A stretch of 64,000 nucleotides of DNA from Candidatus Thiodictyon syntrophicum (lineage in GTDB: Bacteria > Pseudomonadota > Gammaproteobacteria > Chromatiales > Chromatiaceae): contig NZ_CP020370.1 in NCBI RefSeq assembly GCF_002813775.1, positions 3,559,501 to 3,623,500 of the forward strand. The letters run 5' to 3'. Made by a program: the position numbers and the translations under genes. The notes under the pieces were generated by a model. It did no database searches and was not told where the DNA came from. It saw only the letters and a program-made list of their open reading frames with translations. Positions 1-16,344 of this stretch are shown here, piece by piece. Positions within the stretch are counted from its first letter, which is position 1. Each line of letters begins with the position of its first letter.

Positions 1-816
1 AGGCTCCTGATGAACCGCAATGCCTGTGGTAATGTCGGTCGCAGACCGCTTGGGCGTGCGGTCCGCATGGGGCGATCTCGACTCCAGCGTGGAAACGGAA
101 ACCCCATGACCAGCTGGTCGGCTTACAAAGCGATAAATCGCATCCGCCCGGCCATGCACCAATGCCTCGTCATGGGTCACCATGAGTACACTGGTGGCAT
201 AGCTCCGCGCCAGTTCCCGAAAGGCATCCAGCACAATGCGAGCGCTTGCGGAATCGAGGTCCGCGGTAGGCTCGTCGGCGAGTAGAATCCGTGGCTCCTG
301 TACCAGTGCCCGGGCCAGGGCGGCGCGCCGCCGCTGCCCACCGGAGACCTGTCCCGGATGCATGGCGAGCAGGCCCTGGAGGCCCAGGCTGGCCGTCACC
401 TCGTCAATCCGGCGCGGCGACTTGCCGCTCAAACGGGCGGCGAAGCGGATGTTCTCGCCAACGGTGAGAAAGTCCAGGAGACCGCCGGTCTGCAGGACAT
501 AGGCAAAGTAACGCCGCCGGATCAGTGCCCCCTGCTGGCGGGAAACCGCGCACAGATTGAGCGTACGCTCGCCGTCATAGAGGTCGAAGCGGTCCACGCG
601 ATCCGATGACAGGATCAGCGCCAGCATGTCGAACAGGGTGCTCTTGCCGCTGCCGTTGGGACCAAGAACGACCGCCAGGCTGCCGTGCTGGAGACGAAGC
701 TCCGGGACCCGGATCTGGACCTCCTGCCCGAGCCCCTTACGTCGCAGATGCATTTCCTGCACCCACAGCCGCAGACCACCAGTCCCCAATCCATTCGCAA
801 TGCCCTCGGTTGTCAT
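1..816 (-). CDS. ABC transporter ATP-binding protein, LolD/MacB-like (3' end beyond window)
   Basis: This gene runs off the left edge; 272 codons are visible. It encodes an ABC ATPase subunit that would energise a membrane permease from the cytoplasm. All nucleotide-binding motifs are intact and in order: Walker A GPNGSGKST near residue 55, a Q-loop in VLQTGG, the signature SGGQRRR, Walker B ILLADEPTADLD, and a switch histidine in THD. The VSGGQ-RRAALARAL and ADEPTADLD wording resembles the LolD/MacB class, which works with FtsX-like permeases. The ATG overlaps the stop of the vWA gene (ATGA at 813-816), so the two are translationally coupled. The partner permease is presumably the next gene, outside the window. 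The exact substrate cannot be told. Confidence 0.9.
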   Translation of the reverse strand, partial: MTTEGIANGLGTGGLRLWVQEMHLRRKGLGQEVQIRVPELRLQHGSLAVVLGPNGSGKSTLFDMLALILSSDRVDRFDLYDGERTLNLCAVSRQQGALIRRRYFAYVLQTGGLLDFLTVGENIRFAARLSGKSPRRIDEVTASLGLQGLLAMHPGQVSGGQRRRAALARALVQEPRILLADEPTADLDSASARIVLDAFRELARSYATSVLMVTHDEALVHGRADAIYRFVSRPAGHGVSVSTLESRSPHADRTPKRSATDITTGIAVHQEP

Positions 817-3074
817 GGGAGGTGATTGAGTTCAACGCCGACCACGCGCTCCTTGGCGCCAGTGCTCAAGCGCCGCCAGACCTGCGGATCGCCGCGGGCG
901 CGGCGCAAGTCTTCATAGGTGGCGAGCTTGGTCTTCAGTGATGCCACGAAGCCTTGGACCCGGTCCGGGTTCTGGAACTCGTCCCGGGTCATGGACATGA
1001 TGTCACTGTCGTAGGGGAGTTGGTCGATGCCGAGGGGAATGGCAAAGGCATCGCGGAAGTTGACCGCCGTCGGGTCGACCATGGTGATACGGGTGTTGCG
1101 CGCCACCAAGTCGAAAAAGTCCAGGGTCGTGCCACTCTCGCCGCGCAGGGCGATCTCCCCGACGTCCTTTAACTCCCGCACCCGCGCTTCGAGTTCGTCG
1201 AGTTCGGCCTCGGTGAATAGCACCATCGGTGCCAGTGCCTCCTGACCCGGATTCGTGAGCACCTTGTCCGAAACCCAGCCGCGTACTTCGTTACGAGGCA
1301 TGTTCGGACCCGCGAGGGTTAGGGCTGCATGCTGAAAAATCAGTTCAGACAGGGTGCCGGACTGAACGCTCTGGAGGCATTCGGACCCCTGACCACCCGC
1401 GGCGCAACGCCGGGCCTGCGCAATGGCCGTCTCCCCCTCATGTAAGCGATCAAGGACGAGTTGTTTGAATCCCTTGGACTCCGCATCGACGGCGTAGACA
1501 TAGCTGGTCTCGCCGCTCGTCCCAAAGGAGCCCTGGTAGGCCGAGGCGAGTTCGCGGTACTGCCGTTCCGTGACCTGATCTAATCCCTTGGATATTTTTG
1601 AGTTCTTGATGGGGAAGGCAACCAGTTTCACCCGAGCGACATCGGCCTTGCGGCGCAGCGCCTCGATCGTATACAGGGTGTCCTTGCCCGGGGCATCCCC
1701 CACCAGAAATAGCAGCTTCAGGGCCTCGGGGCGCCACTGCTCGCTCTTGATCGCGAGTTGCAGACCCTCGAACACGGACTCAGGGATGTCGTCGCCGCTC
1801 ACCGCGACCGGCTGTGCTCGGATTCCCTTAAGCGTGCGGACGAAGTCCCTCGCCGACTGCATTGCGCTGGTAAACTCGCGCGCCTGATACTCGAAGCGCG
1901 GGTCCAGGTCCCGATAACCGACGAAGCCAAACCGCAGGCTGTCGTCGGGACTGGAGACGGCGAACGCTTCCACTGCCGCCAGGACCTCGCGCAGATAGGG
2001 CCCCATCGACTCGGTCGTATCCATGACGAACAGGATATCGACGGGCGCAACGGTACCCCCGGCCGCCCCATCTGTTCCGGTGCGGGCAGCGACCTCAAGG
2101 ACCCGTGCCGTCTTGCCGTCGATACGCAGGTCGGCATTGCGACCACGGCCGTAGAAGTCCAAGACCGGATACATCACGGCACGATCCTGGTTTGGGTTCA
2201 CCCGCGGCTCGACGGCAATCACGTCGCCGCCACCCGTGCGGCGTTCGACCGCGGCACTCAGGTCCGCGACCCGGTTCCGGCGTTGCGCCGGGTCCAAGTC
2301 CATGAGGGCCAGGAGGGGCTCCGGCTTGGCGAACAAGAGTGACTGTTCGCGCTGTAGCGGATTGGTGAAGCGCATGACCACGGCACGTCGCCACGGGATA
2401 CACTCGTCCTGCGCAATCCAGCCCAGGCCCTTGGGCGACCAGTCCGGCGGCTTGACCTTGGGAACATGGTCCTCGGTGATCTGATACCACAAGCGTCCTT
2501 GGCCGTCTTTGGTGCTATCAACCACGCCGAAGGACTCATATTGTTGGACATTATCCCGGGTGACCGCGCTTAGCGGGTCCGCTCGTTCGTGGATCCGCGC
2601 GCCCTGAAGGGCCAGGACGCGGGCGACTGGGGTCTTGCGCGGATCCGGCGGGCGGCCATCCCACCAAGTGGTCTCATCCTCTGAGAGACGCACCTCGCGC
2701 AGCACCCCCGGGCGATAGCGCTCCACGTAACGCACGGCGCGCTGCCGCCCGATCTCATCCGGCGCGAGATTCAGATCCCGTCCCATCAGCCCGTGCAAAG
2801 CCGTGCGGTTGCGGTTCTCGTCCTCCGCCAATGCGCGTGCCTCGGGTGGGCAGTTGTGATTGATCTCCAAGAGCCCATCCAGGCGCTCACCGAGACAATG
2901 GCGCGGCTGACCCAGTTCGGACTCCAGGCCGGTCTGACGCCCCTGCATGGAGACCAGGATACTCTGATAGTCGTCCGGCCCCGGGGACGGGGCGGCACCG
3001 GCGAGTGAAGACCACAGCAGCAAGCCGACGGCCCCGGCGATGGCAACTGGCAATATCGCGCGAGATCCGATCAT
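813..3074 (-). CDS. Secreted vWA-domain protein of the tubulin-like operon
   Basis: A 753-residue protein with an N-terminal signal peptide (hydrophobic residues 8-26, cleavage near LAGAA). A vWA domain begins around residue 345; its MIDAS motif is DTTESM, followed by a Rossmann-like pattern ending in LFLVGDAPG. The first 340 residues are not recognised. vWA domains bind Mg2+ at the MIDAS and mediate protein-protein contacts, so this is probably the extracytoplasmic adhesion or scaffold part of a complex. It overlaps its neighbours by 4 bases on both sides (ATG with 3071-3074, stop with the ABC gene), which places it firmly in the operon with the tubulin-like GTPase. The vWA call is strong; the biological role is unknown. 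Confidence 0.85.
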   Translation of the reverse strand: MIGSRAILPVAIAGAVGLLLWSSLAGAAPSPGPDDYQSILVSMQGRQTGLESELGQPRHCLGERLDGLLEINHNCPPEARALAEDENRNRTALHGLMGRDLNLAPDEIGRQRAVRYVERYRPGVLREVRLSEDETTWWDGRPPDPRKTPVARVLALQGARIHERADPLSAVTRDNVQQYESFGVVDSTKDGQGRLWYQITEDHVPKVKPPDWSPKGLGWIAQDECIPWRRAVVMRFTNPLQREQSLLFAKPEPLLALMDLDPAQRRNRVADLSAAVERRTGGGDVIAVEPRVNPNQDRAVMYPVLDFYGRGRNADLRIDGKTARVLEVAARTGTDGAAGGTVAPVDILFVMDTTESMGPYLREVLAAVEAFAVSSPDDSLRFGFVGYRDLDPRFEYQAREFTSAMQSARDFVRTLKGIRAQPVAVSGDDIPESVFEGLQLAIKSEQWRPEALKLLFLVGDAPGKDTLYTIEALRRKADVARVKLVAFPIKNSKISKGLDQVTERQYRELASAYQGSFGTSGETSYVYAVDAESKGFKQLVLDRLHEGETAIAQARRCAAGGQGSECLQSVQSGTLSELIFQHAALTLAGPNMPRNEVRGWVSDKVLTNPGQEALAPMVLFTEAELDELEARVRELKDVGEIALRGESGTTLDFFDLVARNTRITMVDPTAVNFRDAFAIPLGIDQLPYDSDIMSMTRDEFQNPDRVQGFVASLKTKLATYEDLRRARGDPQVWRRLSTGAKERVVGVELNHLP

Positions 3075-3715
3075 GGCTTCTTCGACAGGATGGTCGAGGT
3101 GGATTCCAGGCGATCATAGACCCACCAGGGATCGCGGCTCACCATCAGCAGAACCTTCCTGGGGGAGTTTGAATCATTACTGCGTAGTGTCAGGGTCCCC
3201 TCGCCGGGGCTCGCTGGGCCGGCGGCATAGTGGATGGTCACATCAGTTGATTCCCCCGGAGGGATGCGCGAAGTCGGCAGCGGGGCGGTAAAGCTCGCCG
3301 GACTTAGGTCGATCCCCGCGATGTTCAAATCCCCGCTCCCGTCATTGCGGATACGCAGGGTACCAATGGTTTCTTCCGAACCACCCTGGGAGAAAACAAC
3401 GGGCTCGCTGACGATGACCAACCGCGGCTCGTCAGCCGTGAATAGCCAAATCGCCGCGGCCCCCAAGGCGAGGACCCCGAGTGCGGCGCCGCCGAATATA
3501 GCGATCCGCGCCCAGGGCCAGCCCTGCTTCAATGGGAAGGGACCGACCAGCGGTTTGCCGCAGGTGGCCCCGGACAAGGTCTTCCCCGGGCACTTGGGAA
3601 TCCCACCGTCCAATGCTGGTGGGAGATCTTGCTCGGCAATAACTCGGTTGCCCCGCGCAAATTCGCAGGGGTCCGATCCGAACTCGTTCTCGCAACGGTA
3701 GCAGCGCTTGGCCAT
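3071..3715 (-). CDS. Cys-rich, single-pass membrane protein with Ig-like (HYDIN/DUF1573-type) outer domain
   Basis: A 214-residue protein. The N-terminus carries paired cysteines (CYRCENEFGSDPC, later KCPG and TCGK) that could form a zinc ribbon facing the cytoplasm. One transmembrane helix lies at about residues 70-92. It is followed by a beta-rich domain with the pattern GTLRIRNDGSGDLNI...IPPGESTDVTIHY...LTLRSNDSNSP, which matches the choice-of-anchor/ASPM-HYDIN Ig-like fold. This layout would link a cytoplasmic Zn module to a periplasmic beta-sandwich, perhaps bridging the cytoplasmic tubulin-like protein and the secreted vWA protein encoded on either side. It starts 3 bases after the tubulin-like stop and overlaps the vWA gene by 4 bases. 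The family assignment rests on motif reading only. Confidence 0.75.
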   Translation of the reverse strand: MAKRCYRCENEFGSDPCEFARGNRVIAEQDLPPALDGGIPKCPGKTLSGATCGKPLVGPFPLKQGWPWARIAIFGGAALGVLALGAAAIWLFTADEPRLVIVSEPVVFSQGGSEETIGTLRIRNDGSGDLNIAGIDLSPASFTAPLPTSRIPPGESTDVTIHYAAGPASPGEGTLTLRSNDSNSPRKVLLMVSRDPWWVYDRLESTSTILSKKP

Positions 3716-3718
3716 GGC

Positions 3719-6700
3719 TTAGACCGACGACCGATCCGCCAAGCGCCGGGCCAACTCCCCGGCCTCCTTCGCCTTCTGGTCGAAGAACTTGTAGGTCGCG
3801 TCGTCCTCCCGGCGGCCGGAAAGCAAAAAGCACTGTCCGCTCATATCGCCGAAGCGCGCCAGGACCCGGGTCAGGTCGAGCCCGCGGTCTTGTTGGACCT
3901 TGTCGGTAACGAGCTTGGAAACCGCCGCCAGACTGTCTTCGGTGAAACGATCCAGATACAAGAGATAGAGCACAATCACGTCCACCGGGATGGCGTGACC
4001 GAACCGGCTTTCGCTCTCGGCCGCGGTTTCGCGGACGGCGGCGGTCATGACCATGCCGGTCTCGACCTTCTGCTGAACACGCCCAAAGGTATCGACGACC
4101 CCAAACAGGACTTGCTCCCCGTCTTGCTTTGGGACGACCATCAGATCCAGCGCCGTGGCGAGCAGGATGGGCGCAAGGTGCTGTCGGCGTACTTCCCGCA
4201 CGTCCGACTTCATCAGATCCGGCAGGGGCGGTTCGTGACTCTCCGTATGAACCTCGAAACAGGCGCGCCGCGATTCACGATCATCCTTATGGGTCAGCCG
4301 CTTGCGGTATTCTGTCCGCAGCCCGTGGGCGACCCGGGTGGTACGGGCCGAGAAAAAGAAGGCGACCGAGATGACGACGATCTCCCCGGGGTTGCGATCC
4401 TCGGGTACGTCAAGATAGAGGGTTTCCGCCGTCTTACAGCCGCCCCGCGCACCGGTGATGGACTCGATCCTGTTGCGCAATTGCTGGGCGAACTCAGCGG
4501 GGACCGCCTTGCAGCGGGGAACGAAGACACAGCGCCTGAGGACAGGTCCGCTTACGCCCGGCAGGTCCATGGGCTCTTCGTTGGGATCGAAGGAGATCAT
4601 CGGCATGGACTTGTCGATGAGCTCACGAAGCCAGATCTCGAGGTCGCCATCGGCACGCCCGCCATAATCCGTATAGAGCTTGCGAACGATATTGTGCCCC
4701 AGGATGCCCTCGAAATTGGCATCGTCCTCGCCCATCTTTCGGTGGGCCTCCACGGCGTTATGCTCGGCGACCCGGCGCAATTCGTCCAAGAGGCCCCCAC
4801 CCACCCGATCGGTTTCTCCGACCGGCATCCGCTCATTGTAGGCTGAAAATTCGATACGATCACCGCGTAACGGCACCAGTGCGGCGATAGCGGCATTGGC
4901 CTGACGATCTTGAATCGACTTGTCGCTCTCAAAGCGTTTGGCAATGCTCTCGTTCACGTAGCGAGCATCAACCAGGTATAGCGTATCCTCGGCCCCGTCC
5001 TTCGGAGCGACCTCCTGGATGCGGGCGGCGATCTCCTCGTCGAAACTCTTGGCGAGGAGTTTGAGACGGGTATCGAAGAGGCTGACCTCCTGTTGGAGAC
5101 CCTTGAGTTCGGCGATCAGGACGGCACAGAGGTCCTGGCCATATTCCGCCGCCAACTGGATCGTTCGCCAGTAATAGGTCCGGACGCAGGCATCGCGATA
5201 ATTCTGGAAGATCCGGTCCTGTTTGCGCTTCGCCAACCATCCGCATTTCGCATACTCATTGCGCATCTCATCGCGCAGGTGATCCGTCTCTTCGATCTGC
5301 TGCACCGCTTCCGGGGCCTGCCTGCCGAACGCGATCCGATCGTCTTCGATGCGTGCGATGAGAAACTCGACCGCGGCCGGCAGATAGTGCAGCGGGTAGT
5401 CGAGGTTCAATCGTTCAAGGTTCGTCAGCAGATCCCGCTCGACATTGGCACGGATCGCCTTGGCCCGCTGGCGGATCTCCACCGGCTCGCGGCGTATGCG
5501 GAAATAGTCGCTGCCGCCCCCACCCTCGCCGCGGGAGCGAAAACCGCTCTCCCAGTAGCGTGCAACCCGTCGGTCAAGATCCGCCAGCCACTCCTTCCGC
5601 CCGGCGACTTCATCTCCGAGCTGCTGGCGGACGCGATCCGCCTGGCGCCGGACCTCCTCGCGCCAATCAGTCTCGTAATTCGCAAATCCCGGCTGTCCGC
5701 TCGCGTCATCGACGAGGTCCAGGCACAGATGGTCACGGGTGATATGCCACAGGCCCCGGCGGCTATCGACAAAGCCATCACGGGCGAACGACCGCGGGCT
5801 CTCCCGGTAGCGACTGTCCCAGTTATGATAGAGGACCTTCAGAACGAATTGGCGCGCGAAGGAGTAGGATAGCTTCTCCCGGATCTCACGCTCCGGAATC
5901 GCCACCCGCTGCACACCGTAGCCGATGAAGGCAGTCGATCGGCTCCCGCCGTTGACATCAGCAGGATGAGGACGGTCTTCCAGCGTAAGGGCGTCGCGTA
6001 GCGGCTTCGGCACATCGCCCAGCTGCCGCACCGCGAGTTGGAACAGAAACTCAGCGGCATTCTCGACCTGCTGCGACAATGGGACGTCACGCCCGCCCTC
6101 AGTGGTATCCGAAATCAAGGCCACTGATTTAAAGGTTCCCTGCAGGTCTCCGGTGGGTTCCCCGGTGCGCGGTACCGCCAGGCGCCGCGCACCGCCTCCC
6201 GCGGTCGGAGCAATATCCCAGGGGGAGTAAATTGCCAGGCGGAAGGCATTCAGTTCCAACAGTGCCGCGTATTGATTGGCGTAAAAGTTACCGGCATTGA
6301 CACTCCCGACGTCCTTGGCGGTGACGAAGCCGTGAATAAAGAGGTTGAAGGTGCCTGGTTGACTGCGCAAATGGCGCTGGACCTGGCTGACGACATCAAT
6401 GAGTGAACCGCTGCCGGTACCCGCGGCGAGGGTGCATGCCAAGTGGATCTCGGCGCCGACCTGCCCGCCCCGGCTCAGTTCCTGTAGGCGATTGGCCACT
6501 GCCGCGACGACATTGGTGATCCCGTTGCCGTTGGCCAGGGCGAGCCGACCCATACGGCGGATCTGATTGCACCCCTTGGGCTCGGTGCTGCCGCGGGTGA
6601 TGTCAGTGACGAAGTCGAGTTCATGGCGAATCCATGGCTCGATGCCGGGGTAGCGCTCCACGCTGGAGAGGATGCGACCGATCCCGCTGGGATCAAGGAG

Positions 6701-6985
6701 TACCTTTTCCCGATCCCCCAGGCGCAACGTATCGCCAAACACCCGCCAGCCGCGCAGTCTCTCCCCGGCACCCTCCAGGTCATCTCTATTAGAGTCGATG
6801 CTGAGGGTGGCAATCCTGGACTCGATACGCTCCCCGGCCACGGTGTCCATAAAGGGGTAGATTTCGGGATAGGGGCCGCTATTTCCCCGGGAGCGCCACT
6901 CGATATAGAGGCGCTTCTTCAACTCCCGAACGACGGCACAACCAGTGCCGCCCAGCCCAATGAGCAGATAGTTGTGCTGGGACAT
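3719..6985 (-). CDS. Tubulin/FtsZ-like GTPase (Tubulin_2-type), 1088 aa
   Basis: A large cytoplasmic protein with the hallmarks of the tubulin/FtsZ superfamily: an N-terminal nucleotide-binding loop IGLGGTG at residues 8-14 and the tubulin signature loop AAGTGSG near residue 188. FtsZ and tubulin use these loops for GTP binding and polymerisation. The long C-terminal two thirds, with Arg/Glu-rich helical stretches, are not found in classical FtsZ but are usual in the large Tubulin_2 group. I chose the ATG at 6985 over one 17 codons upstream because GGAGGT lies about 10 bases before it and the upstream gene stops at 6987. FtsZ-like proteins have been reported next to vWA proteins and proposed to act in membrane remodelling; the operon here fits that, but polymerisation is unproven. 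Confidence 0.85.
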   Translation of the reverse strand: MSQHNYLLIGLGGTGCAVVRELKKRLYIEWRSRGNSGPYPEIYPFMDTVAGERIESRIATLSIDSNRDDLEGAGERLRGWRVFGDTLRLGDREKVLLDPSGIGRILSSVERYPGIEPWIRHELDFVTDITRGSTEPKGCNQIRRMGRLALANGNGITNVVAAVANRLQELSRGGQVGAEIHLACTLAAGTGSGSLIDVVSQVQRHLRSQPGTFNLFIHGFVTAKDVGSVNAGNFYANQYAALLELNAFRLAIYSPWDIAPTAGGGARRLAVPRTGEPTGDLQGTFKSVALISDTTEGGRDVPLSQQVENAAEFLFQLAVRQLGDVPKPLRDALTLEDRPHPADVNGGSRSTAFIGYGVQRVAIPEREIREKLSYSFARQFVLKVLYHNWDSRYRESPRSFARDGFVDSRRGLWHITRDHLCLDLVDDASGQPGFANYETDWREEVRRQADRVRQQLGDEVAGRKEWLADLDRRVARYWESGFRSRGEGGGGSDYFRIRREPVEIRQRAKAIRANVERDLLTNLERLNLDYPLHYLPAAVEFLIARIEDDRIAFGRQAPEAVQQIEETDHLRDEMRNEYAKCGWLAKRKQDRIFQNYRDACVRTYYWRTIQLAAEYGQDLCAVLIAELKGLQQEVSLFDTRLKLLAKSFDEEIAARIQEVAPKDGAEDTLYLVDARYVNESIAKRFESDKSIQDRQANAAIAALVPLRGDRIEFSAYNERMPVGETDRVGGGLLDELRRVAEHNAVEAHRKMGEDDANFEGILGHNIVRKLYTDYGGRADGDLEIWLRELIDKSMPMISFDPNEEPMDLPGVSGPVLRRCVFVPRCKAVPAEFAQQLRNRIESITGARGGCKTAETLYLDVPEDRNPGEIVVISVAFFFSARTTRVAHGLRTEYRKRLTHKDDRESRRACFEVHTESHEPPLPDLMKSDVREVRRQHLAPILLATALDLMVVPKQDGEQVLFGVVDTFGRVQQKVETGMVMTAAVRETAAESESRFGHAIPVDVIVLYLLYLDRFTEDSLAAVSKLVTDKVQQDRGLDLTRVLARFGDMSGQCFLLSGRREDDATYKFFDQKAKEAGELARRLADRSSV

Positions 6986-6986
6986 G

Positions 6987-7808
6987 TCAGCGACCTCCGC
7001 GGGGTGGTGCCGCCCGCCGGACCTTGATATCGGCAAGCGCGGCGTGGATCAGCAGGAAGAAGGTGATTCCCTGGACAATCAGGAAGGCGATCACCAAGGC
7101 GATGCGGGACAACAGGACGATCCTTGGAACCTGCTGCTCGAGGCCTCGGCGTATCTCCCCGCCGGCCAGGCGAGCCGCATCCTTTGCGTCATAATTCGGA
7201 CTGCCGGCGCCGAAGACGCGATGCATGTCGGCGTAAATCTCATCCTGCGCAATCTTTGGCCGCGCCCACAAGATCTTGCTCAGCACCGGGTGCTGGATGC
7301 GGAAATGGGTGACAGCGGCCTCGGCATAGATATCGGCGGCCTTGAGCTTCGAGGCTTCCTGAGTTGTGGGAATCGAGGTCGGCAGCCCGGTTTTCGGGTC
7401 CGGCCGCTTGGAAAAGTCCTCCAATGGTTTGCCCATTGGAGTGTGCAGCGCGCGGACGCCCTCGTAGGCGCGCTGGAAGGTGTCGTCGGCCCATGGCTGG
7501 TCGACCTGGATGCCGACTTCCCAAGCGGACACCATTACCTTAGCCACGTCTGCGGTATAGTGCAGAGCAAAAAAGACGATGGAAAAAAAGAAGGTAACTG
7601 TCGCAGCTACGCCACAGTAGAAATAGTGCTCGGGGCGAAAGGAAAACTGGCGATTGAAACTGAAGGAGACAAAATACGCGAGCCACCACGAAAAGGCAGC
7701 CAGGATGATGCCGACCGCAGCGGCGGCGAAGAATTCGCCACGACTGTTCAGCCAGAGTTCGGTTATGAGCCCGGCGAGCAGCGATACGAGATCAAGCAAT
7801 GCGTCCAT
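6987..7808 (-). CDS. Membrane protein of the tubulin-like operon, unknown function
   Basis: A 273-residue protein with two N-terminal transmembrane helices (about residues 30-48 and 64-87), a soluble region of roughly 145 residues, and a C-terminal helix near residues 235-258 followed by a short basic tail. No known domain is recognised. The ATG at 7808 is preferred over an in-frame TTG at 7817 because GGCGGG lies about 10 bases before it. The stop is one base upstream of the start of the tubulin-like GTPase, so the two are almost certainly made together. A membrane anchor or receptor for the GTPase is a reasonable guess from position alone. Confidence 0.7.
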   Translation of the reverse strand: MDALLDLVSLLAGLITELWLNSRGEFFAAAAVGIILAAFSWWLAYFVSFSFNRQFSFRPEHYFYCGVAATVTFFFSIVFFALHYTADVAKVMVSAWEVGIQVDQPWADDTFQRAYEGVRALHTPMGKPLEDFSKRPDPKTGLPTSIPTTQEASKLKAADIYAEAAVTHFRIQHPVLSKILWARPKIAQDEIYADMHRVFGAGSPNYDAKDAARLAGGEIRRGLEQQVPRIVLLSRIALVIAFLIVQGITFFLLIHAALADIKVRRAAPPRGGR

Positions 7809-8021
7809 AACAAGCAACCCGCCTGAAGATTTTTTTATTTAGTGCGAGCACAACGTCCGCAGCCCGGTGGAGACCAAATCCAAAGGGGCCAGGAACCCGG
7901 AAAGGCCTAGTCCCAGCGGTTGAGAAAACCGCCACGGCCCTCGCTCAAGGATATTGAACGACAGCGATGTCGGCGGCGACGTTTTGTGCAAAATGGCGAG
8001 CCGGACGGCCTGCCGATCCGC
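7809..8021. other. Intergenic gap inside operon A, no feature seen
   Basis: About 210 bases without a convincing reading frame on either strand. An AT-rich patch at 7828-7840 precedes the membrane-protein gene. I could not pair -35 and -10 boxes with confidence, but this is the largest gap in the minus-strand series and is where an internal promoter would lie. Confidence 0.4.
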
Positions 8022-8444
8022 CTACGTGCGACTGCCGAAGGTCTCCTGCAACTCCATAAACTTGCGGCGAAACTCAATGGGATTCGAGATGCCGGGCACC
8101 GGCGCCTGCGGATTCCCCGCGCCGGCGACAATGACTGAGCCATAGTCGAGCATACGGCCGACAAGGGATTGATTGACCTGAATACTCTCGACCTTCGGCA
8201 GCAGCAATTCAATGGTGTGGCGCGAGATGAATCCGAACTTTGCCACGATTTTCTTATTTGTAATGACCAGCTCGGTGCTGATGTAGCGCAGATAGGCGAC
8301 AACCCAGAAGAGTACGCCGATACCATACAGGGGTAGCAGGACGAGGCCGAGGACGAACAGCGGCAGCATCGCCCAGAGGCTCACGCTGGCAGTGTATTCA
8401 ACCTTTTCATTGGCACTCAGAACACTTTCGACATAGGATGACAT
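8022..8444 (-). CDS. PH-domain (bPH2/YdbT-like) small membrane protein
   Basis: A 140-residue protein. Two closely spaced hydrophobic segments at about residues 22-55 form a hairpin in the membrane. They are followed by the bacterial PH pattern YISTELVITNKKIVAKFGFISRHT..LLLPKVESIQVNQS, then VIVAGAGNP. Bacterial PH_2 proteins of this layout sit in the inner membrane with the PH fold in the cytoplasm and are often one member of a larger envelope system. The C-terminal residues after the PH core (NPIEFRRKFMEL) are typical. The ATG has GGAGA about 10 bases upstream. It is on the same strand as the tubulin-like operon, 200 bases ahead of the membrane-protein gene, so it may be part of the same transcript. 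Confidence 0.75.
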   Translation of the reverse strand: MSSYVESVLSANEKVEYTASVSLWAMLPLFVLGLVLLPLYGIGVLFWVVAYLRYISTELVITNKKIVAKFGFISRHTIELLLPKVESIQVNQSLVGRMLDYGSVIVAGAGNPQAPVPGISNPIEFRRKFMELQETFGSRT

Positions 8445-8525
8445 TCTTATCTATCTCCGATCATCTGTGCTTCGGGAAGGCAATGCCGGCAACTGGCATT
8501 ACCCGACAATCCAGCGGACTTGCGG

Positions 8526-8735
8526 TCAGGTCGGCGCCGTGGCGGCGCTCACAATGGCCCATACCCATACGATGAAAACAATTGGCACCCCGATAATACC
8601 CCCAATGCCGGTCCATGCCAGGATGACCCCGATCGCCCCGAGCACGATCTGAAAAAATGCCTGCCACCACTTCTTAACCAGCAGGGTACCGATGCCGGGA
8701 AAGAAGACGTTGACGATGATTGCGAGTGCCTTCAT
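8526..8735 (-). CDS. Small hydrophobic membrane protein
   Basis: A 69-residue, almost wholly hydrophobic protein with two transmembrane stretches (residues about 2-20 and 26-60) separated by KKWWQAF. The layout resembles small TM2/Pmp3-like membrane proteins, but no family is assigned. The ATG at 8735 is chosen over the one at 8756 because GGAAGAG lies about 9 bases upstream of it. It lies between the PH-domain gene and a small beta-rich protein gene on the same strand. Confidence 0.6.
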   Translation of the reverse strand: MKALAIIVNVFFPGIGTLLVKKWWQAFFQIVLGAIGVILAWTGIGGIIGVPIVFIVWVWAIVSAATAPT

Positions 8736-8800
8736 GTGAGTATTCTTCTCTTCCATTAATTCAAGATGGCCACCGTGGCACGCGATTGATAGTGCAGTTG

Positions 8801-9019
8801 CTATATCGTCACGGACGTCCGTCCCGGTGCGGAAAACGAGCCAACCTCACGGCCGCTCACATAGATTTTCGCTGTGCCTTTTGATGAGTGCGAGATCTCC
8901 GCGCACCCAGAACTGTCGGTAACCGCGTCGGCCATTCCACCACCCGATATTGAGATCGCGACCCGCTTGTGCTGCACGGGTTTCCCATCTCGATTATACA
9001 GGCATACAGTGCTGTTCAT
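8801..9019 (-). CDS. Small beta-rich protein, first gene of operon A
   Basis: A 72-residue protein with alternating hydrophobic/polar strands and the elements GKPVQHKRVAISISGG, AVTDSSGCAEISH and KIYVSGREVGSF. This is the rhythm of a carboxypeptidase-regulatory or SpaA-like beta-sandwich. It has no signal peptide. It is the most upstream gene of the minus-strand series, and the IS66 insertion lies about 100 bases upstream of its start. Its function is unknown. Confidence 0.55.
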   Translation of the reverse strand: MNSTVCLYNRDGKPVQHKRVAISISGGGMADAVTDSSGCAEISHSSKGTAKIYVSGREVGSFSAPGRTSVTI

Positions 9020-9111: not shown

Positions 9112-10824
9112 CTTGAAATGTAGCCGTTCAGAGACCCAGCATTGGAGCCGGCAGCGGAGCGGCGGCGCGACCGGCGCGGCGCTCAGCGATCACGCCGGCC
9201 AGATAGGACCACGGCACATGGCCGCGCTGGCGACAGGTTTCAATCACGCTGGCGAGCAGGGTGAAGGTGCGCGACCCGGCATCACAACGCGTGCCCATCA
9301 TGATCCGCCGCGCGATTACCCAATGGCGCAGCGCCCGCTCGGCGGCGTTGTTGGTGAGCGGCCACTGGGGATTCTCCAGCACCCGAAAGATGGCGTCCCA
9401 GTCGTTCCACAACTCGACGGCCAAGGCGCGCGTCTTGACGTGCCGGTGCCCGAGCAGCTGCACGCAGGCCGCATGCAACTCGGCCAGCAACTTGGCGTGG
9501 ATGTGCGGCAGCTCGGCCGGCGGCCCCGCGCGCGCCGCATGGATGGCGCCAATCAGGGTGTCGAAAGTGGTTTGGACTTGGTGCCCAAAGGCTTGCCCCT
9601 CGCGATCGAAACTCTCGATCAACCCCTGCGCCTTGCGCGTGAGGTGTGCCCAACAGCGCAGCCGTTGCGGCAGGTGGCGATACGCCTGCCAGCCGTCGCT
9701 CATCAGCCAGCCGGCGAAGCCCGGCAGGAGGCGATCAAGCACCTCACGCCCGCGCTTGGCCACCACGAACAAGGTGACGGTGGCACTGGTGAACACCCAC
9801 AGCCACAGCAAGTCGGCGCCTTGCGGCCAGGAGGTTTCATCGGCGTGCAGCAGGTCGCTGGCCACCACCGCCGCGATCAATTCTTGTTCCAGCGGGAGCG
9901 CCGCGGCGGCGGCCTCGCGTAGGGTGCGATCCAGGGTGCCGACGCTCAGGCTCAACCCCAGCCAGTCGTGCAGAAACTCCCGTATCCGTCGGTACGACAT
10001 CCGAAAGCGCAGATGCAGCGCCACGATCAGGGTCGCCAGCCCCGCCCCGACCACCCGCCATTCGCTCAAGGCCACCGGATCTAACGTTGAGTCATCCACC
10101 AGACCTTCGCCGGGACGCGCGCGCGTGTGATGACCGCAGCCGCACAGACTGTCATAAAAACGATGGTCGGTGACCCGCAGGTGCAGGCCCGGTTGCGCGG
10201 GATCACCCCACACCAGATCGACCGACTGGAAGCCGGCGTAGGCGACACTGGGCGCGTCTCCCGCCAGCGCTTGGGCGCAGGCCGCACAGGCGCTGGGACG
10301 GTGGTGGAGCGTCTCCTGCGCCTTGAACACCTGGGTGCGCCCGCAGCCTGGCGCGCCGGGTTGCTTGCCGGCGTTGCGTTTAGGCTTCTCGGTCGCGCGC
10401 CCAGCGCGCGCTGGCGCGGGCGTCTCGGGGGTGCCGGGCGAATCTTCCGGGGGCGTGCTCGCCTCGTCCGGCGACTCGTCGTCCTGCCTCGCCGTGAGCG
10501 CGTCGGCGTCCGCCGCCTCGATCGCCTCCGCGTCCCCCGCCGACGGGCGCTCCCAGGGCGCACGGCTGCTGGGCGGACGAGAACTGTTGGTCGGATTCTG
10601 CCGCAACCGCTCGCGCGCTTCCTTCAGATCCTCCAACAGCCGCAGCGACAGACCACGCAACGCACCCTCGTCCAGGGTCTGGACATAGGCTTCGTCAAGC
10701 TGGTCAAGGCTGTGGTCGCTCAGGTGCATCGGTCAGTGGCGCGGTATCATCGGGCAACGTAGGGGGACATCCTGATCGGGCTGGAGGCAGCGGTCAAGGG
10801 GTCTCTGAACGGCTACCTTGAAAT
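9112..10824. mobile_element. Complete IS66-family insertion sequence with 8-bp target-site duplication
   Basis: The element spans 9120-10816 (1697 bp). Perfect 18-bp terminal inverted repeats lie at 9120-9137 (GTAGCCGTTCAGAGACCC) and 10799-10816. Immediately outside them the 8-mer CTTGAAAT occurs directly repeated at 9112-9119 and 10817-10824. IS66-family elements duplicate 8 bp on insertion, so this is a clean transposition event, with both ends and the target duplication still perfect, which argues for recent insertion. It carries a single transposase gene and no tnpA/tnpB accessory genes. It landed in an AT-rich intergenic region upstream of the tubulin-like operon. Confidence 0.95.
9128..10729 (-). 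CDS. IS66-family transposase (TnpC type), intact
   Basis: A full-length 533-residue transposase. The N-terminus has the coiled leader and the NPTNSSRPPSS motif typical of IS66 TnpC. An acidic/Pro-rich linker follows, then a zinc-binding region (CAACAQAL, LCGCGHH). The DDE catalytic domain shows HADETSWP (first Asp), MSDGWQAY (second Asp) and NNAAERALR (Glu). The stop lies inside the left inverted repeat, as is usual for compact IS66 members. No frameshift or internal stop is seen, so the element may be active. Confidence 0.95.
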   Translation of the reverse strand: MHLSDHSLDQLDEAYVQTLDEGALRGLSLRLLEDLKEARERLRQNPTNSSRPPSSRAPWERPSAGDAEAIEAADADALTARQDDESPDEASTPPEDSPGTPETPAPARAGRATEKPKRNAGKQPGAPGCGRTQVFKAQETLHHRPSACAACAQALAGDAPSVAYAGFQSVDLVWGDPAQPGLHLRVTDHRFYDSLCGCGHHTRARPGEGLVDDSTLDPVALSEWRVVGAGLATLIVALHLRFRMSYRRIREFLHDWLGLSLSVGTLDRTLREAAAAALPLEQELIAAVVASDLLHADETSWPQGADLLWLWVFTSATVTLFVVAKRGREVLDRLLPGFAGWLMSDGWQAYRHLPQRLRCWAHLTRKAQGLIESFDREGQAFGHQVQTTFDTLIGAIHAARAGPPAELPHIHAKLLAELHAACVQLLGHRHVKTRALAVELWNDWDAIFRVLENPQWPLTNNAAERALRHWVIARRIMMGTRCDAGSRTFTLLASVIETCRQRGHVPWSYLAGVIAERRAGRAAAPLPAPMLGL

Positions 10825-11165: not shown

Positions 11166-13625
11166 TCAGAGATTGCGGAACTCGAAGTACAGGGTCCCGG
11201 CGGCGTTCTTGTAGAGGGTCGAGAAGCGGACCCGGGTTTCCTGCTCGGTGCTCAGCGGCTCCCATTGATTGTCGGCATCCAGATAGAGCACGGTGTTGCC
11301 CGCCAAGGCCTGGATGAAGACCCCGAGCCGGTCGGCGCGCAGCCGGGCCAGGGCGCCGCCGGCGGCGCGGCGTAACTGGAAGTCGCTGGTGATATGGATG
11401 CGGGCGTCGCGGTAGAAGCCGCTGCGTGCGCCCTTTTGGGAGCGGATGTTGAATGGATAGCCCTCGTCCATGTCGGCCTCCGGGGAGAGGATCACGGCCA
11501 GGGGACGCGGGAAGCGGGCCGGTCGCAGGATGCCGTAGAGGATGAATGCGCCCAGCAGTGCCAGCAGGATGGCGACGATGACCGGCCACCAGCAGCGCAG
11601 CCAGTGGTCCGGAATGATCTCCACCCGGATCGGGACCGCGGCCCGCAGCGTCTGGCCGTGACCGTCCAGTGTCTCTACTACCAGGGACCCGGCCTGGTCC
11701 GGGCGGCAGGCCGCCGGACAGGCAGCGACCCGCAGCCGCACCGGATAGCGCTGCTGCCCGCTGCCGTCGAAGCCAAGGACCAGCGGGCGCCCGCCCAGTT
11801 GCTTGTAGCCTTCCCCCAGGTCGATTTCCAGTACGGCGCCGGACTGTGCGAAGTCGCTCGTGAGCTTCAGATCGAAGCGGCCCCGGGCCTGGATGAAACC
11901 CAGATCGAGCGGTGCCTCGCCCTGGGAGCGGCCGGTGAGTCGCCCATAGTCCAGCACCCCGGGCGGTCCAAAGGCGATGGTGCCCTTGACGTCCACCGGC
12001 CCCTGGGCGGTGGCGGAGTCGGTGCCCCCCTCGGCCCGGTACTCGACCATCAGGACCCCGACCTGCCCCGGCGTCCAGTCACGGGCATAGACACCGTCCC
12101 CGGCCGTTCGATCGCCATCGCGGCCGTCGTCGCGCAGCGCCAGGGTGCGGCCGTCGGGGAGTTTTGCACTCACCCGCTCCGGCGTGCGCAGCGCCTGGCG
12201 CGCGCCCAGGGCCTTGAGCCGGACGGCGACGGCGATGGTATCGCCGATGAAGGCCTGGCTCGGGGTCTGTACCTCGAGCACCCAGGCGGCCGGCGCGACC
12301 TGGATCTGTTGGCGCTGCTCGTCCTGGAGATAGCGGCTCGCCAGCCGCACCGGGAAGGTTACGGGCCCGGTCCCCATGAAGCGCACCCGGGCGGTCATGA
12401 GCCCGTCGTCGGCACTCTGGTCGCCCTCCTGGCCGTCATCGCGAAAGGCGATCTCCTTGCCATCCACCAGGGCCGTCACCGCGAGCCCCGGGATCTCCCC
12501 GGGCCGCTCGATGCGTTGCCCGGTCCGGTCGTCGATCAACTGCGCCGTCACCAGGGTGTCCTCCCCTTGCGCCGCCTTGGCGGGTGTGACGACCCGCAGA
12601 CTGATCGAGAAGTCCTGGATCAGGTACCAGCCGGCCTCCCCCGTCAGGCCGGTCACCTCGAAGCGCCAGGTGCCGGCCTGCGGTCGGCGCAGGCGCAGGA
12701 TGCGATAGCCGCGCGTCAGGTCGTCGATACCGCGGGTCTCGCCGGCGCGATAGTCGGGCTCGAGCGCCTCCGCGGCCGGGTTGCCCGCGGCGGGCGCGAT
12801 GCCGCCTACCGGACCCTGCGCCGCGACCAGCAGGAAGGCCTCGTCCACGAAGGGGGCGAGCCTGGTCTCGATCAGGGTGGAGGTCGGCGACAGTTGACCG
12901 GAGTCCGGGGCCTTGGCGCCCAGGAAGCGCTGGTAGATCTCGCCGATGGCGGACAGCAGTTCGGTGGGGTTCTGTGCCGCGGTGTGGATGTCGTATTCGC
13001 TGTGGACCGGCCGCCCCCGATTGCCAAGGCCAACGATCGCGGTATGGACCCCGGCGGCGCGCAACTCGCCCAGGACCCGGTTGCTGTCCCCCCGGCACAG
13101 GTCACGGCCGGCATCGGAGATGACGATCAGCAGCCGCTCCTTCCCCGTGGCGCCGTCCAGCGCCTCCTTGACGGTCAAGAGGGGTACGATGAAATTGGTC
13201 GGTGCGCCATAGAGCGCCCGCTGATCCACCGCCTGTTTGAAGCCGGCGAGATCCCCCGCGTCGCGGTCCAGGCGCCGCCCCGGGTCCGGCTGCAGGACGC
13301 ACTCCGGACTGTCCGGCATCCAGGCCAGCGTCAGGTCATCCGCGGGGCCGAGCAGGTCGGCCAGGATCTTGATGGCCTGGATGGCGAGGCGCGGCTGATC
13401 GTTCTCGGGGGCCCGCATCGAGGTGGAGGTGTCCAGGACTACCGCGACGTGGCGCGGGGGGCGTGCCAGGGGGGCGGACTGGGGCTCGGGCGCGGCTTGA
13501 ATGGGGAGCGACACCAGGATCGCCAGGTAGAGCAACGTCGGCGGCAGGGGATGAAAGGCCTGTGCCAGGGGTGCGAGCGCCTTGACGAATGCGCGGGCGG
13601 CGGTCCGCGCAGCGGCCTCGATCAT
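11166..13625 (-). CDS. Large secreted vWA-domain protein with C-terminal membrane anchor
   Basis: An 819-residue protein from the ATG at 13625. An N-terminal hydrophobic segment (PTLLYLAILVSLPIQAA) acts as signal peptide. The vWA domain follows, with MIDAS motif DTSTSM near residue 63. Beta-rich repeats come next (two RDDGQEGDQSADDG-like loops that look like chelating or Ig-type repeats), then one transmembrane helix around residues 678-702 and a roughly 115-residue cytoplasmic tail. The frame continues in-frame to an ATG at 13826 that overlaps the upstream stop, but the 67 extra codons read straight through an inverted-repeat element (13614-13791), so I favour 13625. That ATG itself lies in the element's end repeat, so the true start is uncertain. 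It has the same architecture as its upstream neighbour. Confidence 0.8.
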   Translation of the reverse strand: MIEAAARTAARAFVKALAPLAQAFHPLPPTLLYLAILVSLPIQAAPEPQSAPLARPPRHVAVVLDTSTSMRAPENDQPRLAIQAIKILADLLGPADDLTLAWMPDSPECVLQPDPGRRLDRDAGDLAGFKQAVDQRALYGAPTNFIVPLLTVKEALDGATGKERLLIVISDAGRDLCRGDSNRVLGELRAAGVHTAIVGLGNRGRPVHSEYDIHTAAQNPTELLSAIGEIYQRFLGAKAPDSGQLSPTSTLIETRLAPFVDEAFLLVAAQGPVGGIAPAAGNPAAEALEPDYRAGETRGIDDLTRGYRILRLRRPQAGTWRFEVTGLTGEAGWYLIQDFSISLRVVTPAKAAQGEDTLVTAQLIDDRTGQRIERPGEIPGLAVTALVDGKEIAFRDDGQEGDQSADDGLMTARVRFMGTGPVTFPVRLASRYLQDEQRQQIQVAPAAWVLEVQTPSQAFIGDTIAVAVRLKALGARQALRTPERVSAKLPDGRTLALRDDGRDGDRTAGDGVYARDWTPGQVGVLMVEYRAEGGTDSATAQGPVDVKGTIAFGPPGVLDYGRLTGRSQGEAPLDLGFIQARGRFDLKLTSDFAQSGAVLEIDLGEGYKQLGGRPLVLGFDGSGQQRYPVRLRVAACPAACRPDQAGSLVVETLDGHGQTLRAAVPIRVEIIPDHWLRCWWPVIVAILLALLGAFILYGILRPARFPRPLAVILSPEADMDEGYPFNIRSQKGARSGFYRDARIHITSDFQLRRAAGGALARLRADRLGVFIQALAGNTVLYLDADNQWEPLSTEQETRVRFSTLYKNAAGTLYFEFRNL

Positions 13626-13791
13626 AATCCCGGCCACTGGGAGCGCCGCACCCCAGTGCGGCGCGATCTCGCGAGCGACCGCGGCGTTGCGTGCTGCGGA
13701 CAGGGCGGGCCGCACTGGGGTGCGGCGCTCCCAGTAGGTCGGCCTGAAGGCCGACCGACACACCGCGATGGCCGGAACGATGATCCAGGCC
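13614..13791. repeat. MITE-like palindromic element with GGCCTnGATCATnnnnCCGGCC ends
   Basis: A 178-bp element. Its ends are 22-bp imperfect inverted repeats at 13614-13635 and 13770-13791 (18 of 22 identical). Inside lie a perfect 27-bp inverted pair, 13636-13662 with 13709-13735, and a hairpin GGTCGGCCT-GA-AGGCCGACC at 13737-13756. The same end sequence bounds a second element at 61393-61528 whose interior is different. The element sits at the 5' end of a vWA gene and reads through in frame. Confidence 0.65.
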
Positions 13792-13822
13792 CGCGCAGCG
13801 GACCCGACGTTCGGGTTGATGT

Positions 13823-16339
13823 TCATAGGAATTGCATCCGCAACCAGAGGTGGTCCTCGCCGCTGCTCAGGCGATAGGGTTTGTGGACTTCGAGCAGCAA
13901 CAAGCCGGCGGCGGTGGGCTCGATCTCGCCCCCGTCACGGTCGCACAGTGTGACACCGCGCGCCAGCCGCAGGGCATAGAGGGTCTCCCCTTGCGGCCGG
14001 ACCCAGCCCAGCAGGGCGCCCTGGTTATCGACCACCTGGCGCTCCGCCCGGCGCGAGAAGAGCCGCCGCAGGGGTGAGGCGGGCGGCAGGGCCCGGGCGG
14101 TGAAGCGATGCGGCTGGGCGCTGCCCGCCACGCCATAGCCCAGGTCGCGCGGCAAGGCGGCGCGGGCGCGCAGCAGCAGCAGCGCCAGGGGCAGCCCCAG
14201 CAGTAACAGGACCAGGGGCAGCAACGACCACCAACGCAGGCCCGGGGCGCGGGCCACCAGCACCTCCGCCTGGAGGGATTTGACCACGTCGAAGTGGTCG
14301 TAGGGCGGGTGATCGAGGATGAACTTCACCCGCAGGGCCGGCGGTGTGAGCGGGTCCCCGTCCGCATAGGGGCCGAGGGTCACGCAGAGTTCATGCCGGC
14401 CGCCGGTCCCGTTGCGCTGCACCAACTCGTCAAGCCGCCGCTGCTTGCCCTTGGACCACTCCGGCCCCGGTTGAGAGGCCGGTTGCGATGGGTCGGACTG
14501 GAAACCGATGCTCTCACCATCCAGGCGGAAGCGGGCGTCGCGCAAAGGTCCGGCGAGCGCCTGACGATCCGCGATCAGGAAGGCCCTGACATTGATGCCC
14601 GCGCCGCCCTGGCTCCCCTGCGCACTCTCCAACCGGGTCCCGAAGTCCTCGGTCAGGGTGAAGGCGGTGCAGGCCTCCTGTCGGCGCCCCAGTGCCCCGC
14701 TGGTGGGATTCATGATCTTGACGGCCGGCGGCTGCGGCGACAGGCCGAGCCGTGGATAGACCAGGGCCACGAATGGATCGTCGGCGCCGCGCACCGCGAC
14801 GGTCCGGTTCTCCAGATCGACCTTCACCGTCACATGCGCCTGATAGGGGGTATCCGCACCATCGGGCAACTGGTTTTTGGTGAACTGCGTTTGCGAGTAA
14901 TAGCGCCGCCCGCCCGCGGCCAGGTCCTCCCAATTGTGCGTATCGGCAATACCGGCGCCATCGGCATCATTGATGTTCCAATAGCCGGCGGCGCCCGGCC
15001 GCGGCTGTTTGATCCAATAGCGCAGCGTCAACTTGGGCGGTATGCCGGCGGTACCGGCGGCCGAGGCCACGAGAAAATCCAGCCGACAGGGCCGATCCGC
15101 CATGGTCACCAGTGATCCCGGGGCGAAACAGGACGGCACCGCGTCCTGCCGCGTACCCCCGCCGGGCGGCTCCTGATGCTCACGCAGGGCGACCGTGAGG
15201 TTGGTCGGGCGCAGGACGAAGACCGACTCGTCGCTCCCCTGGTCGATGCGCAATGAATAGTCGCCGGGCGAGGGTTTCAGTTCCCAGCGCAGCGAAAAGC
15301 TTCCGCCCGGCTCGCGCCCCTCCAGCAGGTGTTGGAGGTTGACACTGCCGCCGGCGGGCGGGGAGAGTGTCAGCTTGGGCGCCGCGGGGGTGGAGCGCCG
15401 CCCCGGGTCCAGCCGCAGGGCCACGATCGCCGCCTCCGTCGGGCCCACGCCCCGGTGCAGATCGAGCCCGAGCGCGCCGGTGCCGACCCGGTCCTTGCGG
15501 TCGTCGGGCAGGTGCAGATACCCGAAGCCCTGCGAGAACAGCCGGATCATGGTGGCGGGCAGTTCCTCGCCGGTACGCACGATGAAGAAATCGGGAAAGA
15601 CGTGCTGCGCATACCTGCCGGCGCGCACATTGGCCGCGTCGGCCGCCTTGATGTCGGCAAAGAAGGCCTCGCCGCGGCTCGTTGCATCCGGACCGAACAG
15701 GATCGCATAGAGGCGCGTCTGTTTGGCCGCGAGCGCGGGCAGGAGTTGCGTCTCGATATAGGCCTGGTCGGCCTGCGGATTGACCGAGAGCCCGTCGGTA
15801 ATGAGGACGATGGTTCTGGTCATCGCCGCGCTGTCCGTGCCCGACAAGGGGGGCAGGTCCGCCAGGGCCTGGATGATGCCCGGTGAATAATAGGTATTCA
15901 TCACATCCAGGGGCAGTTGCGCCGGGCTCAACGCGGTGATGAACTGTGCCCGCGCGGCCATCCCCTTGGCCCGCCGGGGCGTCACCGTGGCGGGCGGCGG
16001 CAGCTCGGCGGTCCATTTCGCGTGGTCGAACGGGATCACCGCGAAGCTGTCCGGATTCTCCGCCTTGTTGGGGTCTGGCTTGAGCAGATCGTGCAGCAGC
16101 AGCGTCGACAGGACCGCCAGTCGGCCCGGATCATTCGGCGGGTCCTGCCAGCCGCAGGCGGCGCCGCACATGGACTTGGAGGTATCCAGGATCACGCGCA
16201 CATGGTCCCCGGTGGAGCCCAGATCCAGCGCGGCCGGGCGGGCGGCGCCGGCCGCGAGCAGGAGGGCGCAGATGAGGGCCCCCCGGGTCCGCAGCGCGTT
16301 CCGACTGAGGAGACGCTCAGGCAAAGACGTAACTGCCAA
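13823..16339 (-). CDS. Large secreted vWA-domain protein with C-terminal membrane anchor
   Basis: An 838-residue protein. A signal peptide covers residues 18-36 (ALICALLLAAGAARPAA). A vWA domain with MIDAS DTSKSM starts near residue 45, with a cysteine pair just after it (CGAAC). The middle is beta-rich and unassigned. A strong transmembrane helix (LLPLVLLLLGLPLALLLL) at about residues 700-723 is followed by a cytoplasmic tail of about 115 residues. The same order (signal, vWA, beta-region, helix, short tail) is seen in the downstream gene, so they are probably ancient tandem paralogues whose products face the periplasm together. It starts 5 bases after the YdjY-like gene. Confidence 0.82.
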   Translation of the reverse strand: MAVTSLPERLLSRNALRTRGALICALLLAAGAARPAALDLGSTGDHVRVILDTSKSMCGAACGWQDPPNDPGRLAVLSTLLLHDLLKPDPNKAENPDSFAVIPFDHAKWTAELPPPATVTPRRAKGMAARAQFITALSPAQLPLDVMNTYYSPGIIQALADLPPLSGTDSAAMTRTIVLITDGLSVNPQADQAYIETQLLPALAAKQTRLYAILFGPDATSRGEAFFADIKAADAANVRAGRYAQHVFPDFFIVRTGEELPATMIRLFSQGFGYLHLPDDRKDRVGTGALGLDLHRGVGPTEAAIVALRLDPGRRSTPAAPKLTLSPPAGGSVNLQHLLEGREPGGSFSLRWELKPSPGDYSLRIDQGSDESVFVLRPTNLTVALREHQEPPGGGTRQDAVPSCFAPGSLVTMADRPCRLDFLVASAAGTAGIPPKLTLRYWIKQPRPGAAGYWNINDADGAGIADTHNWEDLAAGGRRYYSQTQFTKNQLPDGADTPYQAHVTVKVDLENRTVAVRGADDPFVALVYPRLGLSPQPPAVKIMNPTSGALGRRQEACTAFTLTEDFGTRLESAQGSQGGAGINVRAFLIADRQALAGPLRDARFRLDGESIGFQSDPSQPASQPGPEWSKGKQRRLDELVQRNGTGGRHELCVTLGPYADGDPLTPPALRVKFILDHPPYDHFDVVKSLQAEVLVARAPGLRWWSLLPLVLLLLGLPLALLLLRARAALPRDLGYGVAGSAQPHRFTARALPPASPLRRLFSRRAERQVVDNQGALLGWVRPQGETLYALRLARGVTLCDRDGGEIEPTAAGLLLLEVHKPYRLSSGEDHLWLRMQFL

Positions 16340-16344
16340 CTGTC

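Follow-up and report, generated by a model that had tools for sequence, protein, structure and literature searches.

The stretch analysed here, referred to as the window, comprises 64,000 nucleotides of contig NZ_CP020370.1 of Candidatus Thiodictyon syntrophicum (G000:C1:3559501-3623500; host genome 7.74 Mb, with five Tubulin_2 genes). At its left end, on the minus strand, lie the open reading frames (ORFs) that an initial annotation, made from the window sequence, had described as a tubulin-like GTPase operon joined to vWA, Cys-rich/Ig-like, PH-domain and ABC components. The named ORFs are present, but the set was incomplete: the ABC ATPase gene runs 63 bases past the left edge of the window, and the gene row reaches about 5 kb to the left of base 1 in the adjoining stretch L006, where window base 1 corresponds to L006:13502. 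The full cluster holds nine genes, encoding a membrane protein, a tubulin-like protein, a Cys-ribbon adapter, a vWA protein, an ABC ATPase, an FtsX-type permease, an FGE-fold protein, a small lipoprotein-like ORF and a Gly-zipper lipoprotein (GlyZ), beyond which lies an unrelated IF-2B family gene (Table 1). It consists of two modules, of which module 1 contains the membrane protein, the tubulin-like protein and the adapter, and module 2 the vWA, ABC, permease, FGE and lipoprotein genes. The vWA gene overlaps both the adapter gene and the ABC gene by 4 nt, and the GC content of the cluster is 62.5-64.6%, as compared to 67.6-68.9% in the flanking stretches. We use the term operon on the basis of gene spacing and conservation, not of transcripts.

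Table 1. Genes of the cluster and of the region immediately upstream. Positions refer to the window unless preceded by L006, the left extension.
Feature	Module	Coordinates	Strand	Details
Membrane protein	1	6987..7817	-	276 aa from TTG 7817, or 273 aa from ATG 7808
Tubulin-like protein (Tubulin_2/FtsZl1)	1	3719..6985	-	1088 aa, ATG 6985; Pfam PF13809
Adapter (Cys-ribbon, transmembrane segment, Ig-like domain, DPWWVY tail)	1	3071..3715	-	
vWA protein	2	813..3074	-	Pfam VWA_4 2.5e-9
TagT-like ABC ATPase	2	1..816; L006:13439-14317	-	292 aa; Pfam 4.1e-24
TagS-like FtsX-type permease	2	L006:11606-13423		605 aa; FtsX C-terminal domain E 0.0015
TagR-like FGE/SUMF-fold protein	2	L006:9591-11609		Pfam 2.3e-19
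Small lipoprotein-like ORF		L006:9149-9550		133 aa; lipobox and helical look, as read from the sequence
Gly-zipper lipoprotein (GlyZ)	2	L006:8473-9138		221 aa
bPH_2 protein		8022-8444	-	Pfam 8.5e-12; upstream of operon
Two small ORFs		8526-9019	-	One of 72 aa, the other short and hydrophobic (8526-8735); both precede the bPH_2 gene

The order membrane protein, tubulin, adapter, vWA, ABC, FtsX, FGE and GlyZ is common to the window with its extension, a Solidesulfovibrio metagenome-assembled genome (MAG; L043), a Ca. Electrothrix gigas MAG (L044) and a genome from another genus of the same family (L078 with its continuation L204). The two MAGs were found by scanning genome contigs with six peptide patterns, a search sensitive to close relatives only, and their gene order was placed by tblastn. 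The tubulin-like proteins are 59% (L043), 52% (L044) and 61% (L078) identical to that of the window. Eight genes in identical order in three other genomes exceed chance, and the proposal that the tubulin-like protein belongs to a conserved cytoplasm-to-periplasm gene set is borne out. The FtsX-like permease that had been expected to the left of base 1 is also there, below the Pfam cut-off in this genome and above it in the homologues from L043 and L056. The PH-domain gene, listed as a component of the machine, lies outside the conserved set; the bPH profile matched the window copy only and nothing at other tubulin loci. In the Electrothrix locus, FtsX and FGE are separated by an additional ORF that resembles the end of the FGE gene. 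All four loci have a small ORF between FGE and GlyZ, with similarity to that of the window weak in Electrothrix (E 7e-5) and not seen by BLAST in L043.

A fifth locus, L055, from a genome of the same genus, contains a membrane protein, a tubulin, an adapter, a Cys-ribbon-vWA protein, ABC, FtsX and FGE, all divergent in sequence, followed by two lipoprotein-like ORFs, neither of which is matched by the GlyZ profile. In total, the vWA/ABC/FtsX/FGE set was present at five of the 39 Tubulin_2 genes scored, a count that excludes fragments (L112, L113) and leaves out further matches such as G507:C439; the idea that Tubulin_2 homologues might never co-occur with vWA or ABC genes, named by the initial annotation as a ground for giving up its proposal, is contradicted by these loci. 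Most of the related loci come from genomes of one phylum. With a profile of the tubulin subfamily at E 1e-10, matches were obtained in 11 of 210 genomes of the order and in five of 398 genomes of the phylum, the host genome included.

The tubulin-like protein matches the Tubulin_2 profile over positions 1-355 of 356 (E 5.5e-36, 125 bits versus a cut-off of 27) and contains a T1-like loop, GLGGTG, and a T4-like loop, AAGTGSG. Its predicted membership in the tubulin superfamily follows from the Pfam assignment and from the account of the family in the parts covered of Makarova and Koonin 2010 (PMC2875224). A search of PDB sequences with the tubulin and permease profiles gave no match at E 1. Six peptide patterns identified no tubulin homologue in viral contigs, while the search for homologues on plasmids gave two weak matches. 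FtsZ is encoded a second time in the host, on contig C3 (L116 913-2235, G000:C3), and the N-terminal extension of this copy, KRRIFLQGLGAGSALCLG, resembles an export signal, a feature that is odd for FtsZ.

The membrane protein has three to four hydrophobic segments, with a loop of about 150 aa before the last, and a homologue is located immediately upstream of the tubulin gene in L043, L044, L078, L055 and L060. The adapter starts with a Cys-ribbon, continues with one transmembrane segment (residues ~71-89), the flanking charges of which favour a cytoplasmic ribbon, and an Ig-like domain of the HYDIN/DUF1573 type (under Pfam cut-offs), and ends in the DPWWVY tail. The Cys-rich/Ig-like protein of the initial annotation is thus present, but its Ig-like part is dispensable and absent in Electrothrix; the Cys-ribbon and the tail are the conserved parts. 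At 15 of 17 loci of the subfamily (tubulin profile E <= 1e-40, fragments excluded), a gene for a Cys-ribbon and a transmembrane segment was located no more than 1.8 kb from the tubulin gene, as compared to none of 21 other Tubulin_2 loci; in 669,924 bases of sequence distant from tubulins, the same pattern matched twice. The pattern was written once members were already known, and several of the 17 loci are near copies. As for the two remaining loci, a ribbon missed by the pattern was seen by eye in L059 and none was seen in L084; in L114 the ribbon is far from its transmembrane segment. The far part of the adapter varies, being Ig-like in the window, OmpA in L081 and solute-binding-like plus OmpA in L060. 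In L055, a stand-alone Cys-ribbon gene is followed by a second Cys-ribbon fused to a transmembrane segment and a vWA domain; the hydrophobicity of this segment is only moderate, and a stricter threshold did not recover it. At another locus, L109, a gene for a secreted protein (13832-15394), which we take to be caspase-like in appearance (HALIIGVGNY), is located downstream of two Cys-ribbon-transmembrane genes and a subfamily tubulin.

The vWA protein has a hydrophobic N-terminus, is by its sequence probably secreted, and carries a DTTES motif that resembles a metal-ion-dependent adhesion site. A vWA profile built from six rows, L055 and L056 among them, gave matches at E 1e-10 in 152 of 204 genomes of the order and in 35 of 398 genomes of the phylum; of the 35 matches in the phylum, 15 were full-length or nearly so and the other 20 spanned little beyond the vWA domain. 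We compared module 2 to 16 hand-picked stretches (L186-L201), 15 of them chosen through the vWA profile and one through the permease profile. Genes for vWA, ABC and FtsX occurred together in 13 stretches, with FGE on the same strand in 11 of these. Profiles made only from the window, L043 and L044 gave collinear matches in L186 for vWA (1e-37), ABC (1e-54), FtsX (6e-41), FGE (4e-28) and GlyZ (5e-6). The vWA match is a kinase-vWA protein with a Pkinase domain at its N-terminus (8.9e-48), the TagQ gene scores 504.9 bits with NF041250 (cut-off 300), and TssM (1361.7 bits) and TagH (288.8 bits) are located upstream. L186 is a threonine phosphorylation pathway locus of a type VI secretion system (T6SS).

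By these profile comparisons, module 2 corresponds in homology and gene order to PpkA(vWA)-TagT-TagS-TagR-TagQ, with the lipoprotein GlyZ at the position of TagQ. ABC and FGE domains are widespread; the case for homology rests on gene order and on the vWA protein and permease together. The machine had been presented as functionally undescribed, which does not apply to its periplasmic half, the counterpart of the sensory module that PpkA and TagQRST form in type VI secretion. Profiles for the tubulin-like protein, the membrane protein and the adapter matched none of the 16 stretches. No kinase is encoded in the operon, as judged from Pfam scans for Pkinase and from a kinase motif, which was also not found at L043, L044, L078 and L055. 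The FGE protein is probably a binding domain and not an enzyme, because the catalytic Cys pair of active FGE, placed after a GG motif, was not found in CGGNFSVKASDLSAALRTEA. An anti-phage defence function found no support: with PADLOC, eight of the nine proteins had no match at E 0.001, and the ABC ATPase alone matched (best model mad3, 1.7e-29), which is usual for proteins of its kind.

We also compared the histories of the two modules. In trees of the vWA protein and the permease, the window, L043, L044 and L078 form one clade, and L055 falls far from it, in a clade whose permeases are short. In approximately unbiased (AU) tests, a grouping of L055 with the window group was rejected for FtsX (p-AU 6.3e-5) and vWA (p-AU 0.0015); the rejection was weak for the tubulin-like protein (p-AU 0.029; long branches). 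Because this grouping was rejected, modules 1 and 2 were probably paired twice, separately, which is our strongest argument for their functional coupling. In a further genome of the same genus (L056, L111), module 2 adjoins a CsgG/FlgO-domain protein, with no tubulin match in the stretch examined. The permease of this module in L056 is long, and modules with a long permease were also seen in L196, beside CsgG/FlgO-domain proteins, and in L195 and L196, beside M23 peptidase-domain proteins, with no tubulin seen at these loci. Such neighbours are possibly another output of the module.

In the parts of the sources covered, TagQ is described as an outer membrane lipoprotein, TagR as periplasmic and TagS/T as an inner-membrane ABC pair, and mechanical or chemical outer membrane damage acts via TagQRST and PpkA, probably through dimerisation of PpkA (PMC11881912, PMC6657622). 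The sensor domain of PpkA is an extracellular vWA domain, and PpkA interacts with TagR through its C-terminal domain (PMC3224232, in the parts covered). We consider it reasonably likely that the operon encodes a trans-envelope relay of the PpkA-TagQRST kind, signalling from the outside in, with a tubulin-like protein as its cytoplasmic arm. GlyZ, the small lipoprotein and the periplasmic FGE-fold protein would sense a disturbance of the outer envelope, and the vWA protein, gated at its metal site, would take up the signal as the vWA domain of PpkA is thought to do. The TagTS-like ABC pair may power, reset or tune the complex. The adapter and the membrane protein would relay the change through the inner membrane, where the tubulin-like putative GTPase would be recruited or switched by them and may then assemble or alter its state locally; binding of GTP, assembly into filaments and the eventual output are likewise predictions. 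The single-pass Cys-ribbon adapter and the Cys-ribbon/vWA fusion provide a possible link between the two sides of the membrane. A bolder version, which we put forward tentatively and regard as rather unlikely, is a cytoskeletal alarm in which TagQRST-like proteins would detect local damage to the outer envelope and a tubulin-like filament would be nucleated or taken apart at the inner membrane below that site. This FtsZl1 subfamily would then be the output arm of envelope receptors with swappable periplasmic parts (vWA, OmpA, solute-binding-like).

Several observations weigh against the relay. Its outside-in direction is borrowed by analogy from PpkA, and one readout in P. aeruginosa is only modulated by TagS and TagT and does not strictly require them (PMC11881912, PMC6657622, in the parts covered). 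The similarity between GlyZ and the TagQ of L186 extends only across the Gly-zipper (5e-6), and GlyZ did not match the NCBIfam TagQ model NF041250 at E 0.001. A kinase motif was found in three of the 16 module-2 stretches (L186-L188), on the vWA protein, and not in the other 13, so that a tubulin in place of a kinase is one of several states. No T6SS family was identified among the flanking proteins scanned by Pfam. The TssM gene of the host is located elsewhere (L202, G000:C1:2732500-2736066, 1227.2 bits; the window begins at C1:3559501) and none of the five module-2 profiles matched within about 8 kb of it, so that no link to a T6SS is seen. At 34 of the 39 Tubulin_2 genes, module 2 was absent from the stretch examined, some of these being on short contigs or stretches. 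For the tubulin-like protein itself, the T4 loop reads AAGTGSG in all four window-type members versus AGGTGSG in most relatives and the T7 loop was not placed, so that GTP hydrolysis is a prediction. AlphaFold2 models of the full protein (mean predicted local distance difference test score, pLDDT, 36.5) and of its N-terminal 401 aa (40.9) score too low to interpret, and hhalign against FtsZ aligned the T4 loop only, at a probability of 2-14%. Finally, the group used in the AU test was named after the loci had been seen, and the tubulin result, obtained with long branches, reached only p 0.029.

The signal might also run from the inside out, with the tubulin-like protein driving the ABC/FtsX-type pair to act on a periplasmic cell-wall factor, as FtsE and FtsX act on EnvC. 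This was our initial reading, which was demoted once the vWA profile led to PpkA. It has in its favour that a protein of the tubulin superfamily shares its gene row with an ATPase related to FtsE (108.6 bits), a permease of the FtsX type and a periplasmic FGE protein, the long C-terminal half of which is possibly a coiled coil (weak Tropomyosin match, E 0.098). However, the ATPase score is far under the FtsE cut-off of 264.85, Pfam scans identified no EnvC/M23 domain in the operon, and the parts of module 2 match PpkA/TagQRST in order, at stretches where no tubulin was matched; we find the inside-out scheme improbable. The permease tree was built from module-2 permeases only, with no true FtsX among them.

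We also give little credence to the membrane-remodelling machine proposed for FtsZl1/vWA operons in 2010, in which filaments anchored by the envelope proteins would reshape the inner membrane. Membership in the FtsZl1 family and the association with vWA fit this proposal (PMC2875224, in the parts covered), as do the OmpA-type domains on the adapters of L060 and L081. On the other hand, no component with a remodelling role was recognised, the characterised relatives of the partner genes make up a sensory module as far as these sources were covered, and the 2010 paper, in the parts covered, left filament formation by FtsZl1 open, with a reviewer doubting contact with periplasmic proteins. An ordinary exporter of the LolCDE/MacB type that adjoins an unrelated tubulin-like gene by chance would account for the ATPase, which resembles DevA, LolD, FtsE and MacB in general profiles, all under their cut-offs. 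The order kept in three other genomes, the support from trees for a second pairing and the Cys-ribbon/vWA fusion make this explanation highly improbable, and the permease profile at E 1e-5 identified, besides this locus, two others in the host, one by a vWA gene and one by an FGE gene.

Outside the operon, an IS66-family transposase gene (window 9128-10729, minus strand, Pfam 1.3e-37) is located just upstream of the small genes that precede the operon. Further along are three minus-strand genes (11166-17136), for an 886 aa protein with a weak VWA_2 match and for proteins of 838 and 263 aa without Pfam match. A vWA/CoxE-like protein (856 aa) and an RHS-repeat/FG-GAP protein (2342 aa) are encoded on the plus strand (28149-38978).

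Among the matches listed in a search of mostly open-access literature, with the supplements of the 2010 paper outside its scope, no paper joined TagQRST or PpkA to a tubulin-like protein. Nor did the parts covered of the papers on FtsZl1/Tubulin_2, PMC6952346 and PMC9723716 included, report a tested function. The operon resembles the FtsZl1/Tubulin_2 operons described in 2010 in its tubulin family and its vWA association. That paper, as far as covered, predicted membrane remodelling with a GTPase, a kinase and OmpA as partners; a reviewer names one periplasmic component of an ABC transporter, and the ABC/FtsX/FGE set and TagQRST are unmentioned in the main-text parts covered. Like FtsZ-FtsEX-EnvC, where FtsEX is described in the sources covered as a type VII ABC system working through EnvC, the operon places a protein of the tubulin superfamily close to an ATPase related to FtsE and a permease of the FtsX type; it differs from that system in the low FtsE score and the lack of an EnvC/M23 domain.

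With PpkA-TagQRST the operon shares a vWA part, an ABC ATPase, an FtsX-type permease, an FGE-fold protein and a Gly-zipper lipoprotein in the order of L186, and the Cys-ribbon/vWA fusion of L055 has the layout of PpkA with a different N-terminal domain. In contrast to PpkA-TagQRST, it has no kinase, is located outside a T6SS cluster, encodes the vWA protein separately and adds the tubulin-like protein, the membrane protein and the adapter. Its permease has 605 aa versus 412 aa in L186, and lengths above 600 aa also occur in other tubulin-free module-2 stretches. Since a candidate link was seen and the stimulus of the relay, outer membrane damage, is experimentally known, the orphan FtsZl1 family becomes testable as a signalling output. 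TagQRST genes have also been described beside SrfABC in host-associated Deltaproteobacteria, with T6SS machinery genes in one strain only (PMC3608642, in the parts covered), and in our data a vWA-ABC-FtsX-FGE-GlyZ module is located beside SrfB and SrfC-type genes in L201 (3487-18321). The operon is like these neighbourhoods in placing a TagQRST/vWA-type module beside other partners, which are SrfB and SrfC there, with no tubulin-like protein in the descriptions covered. The operon itself suggests that modules of the TagQRST type have exchangeable cytoplasmic partners.

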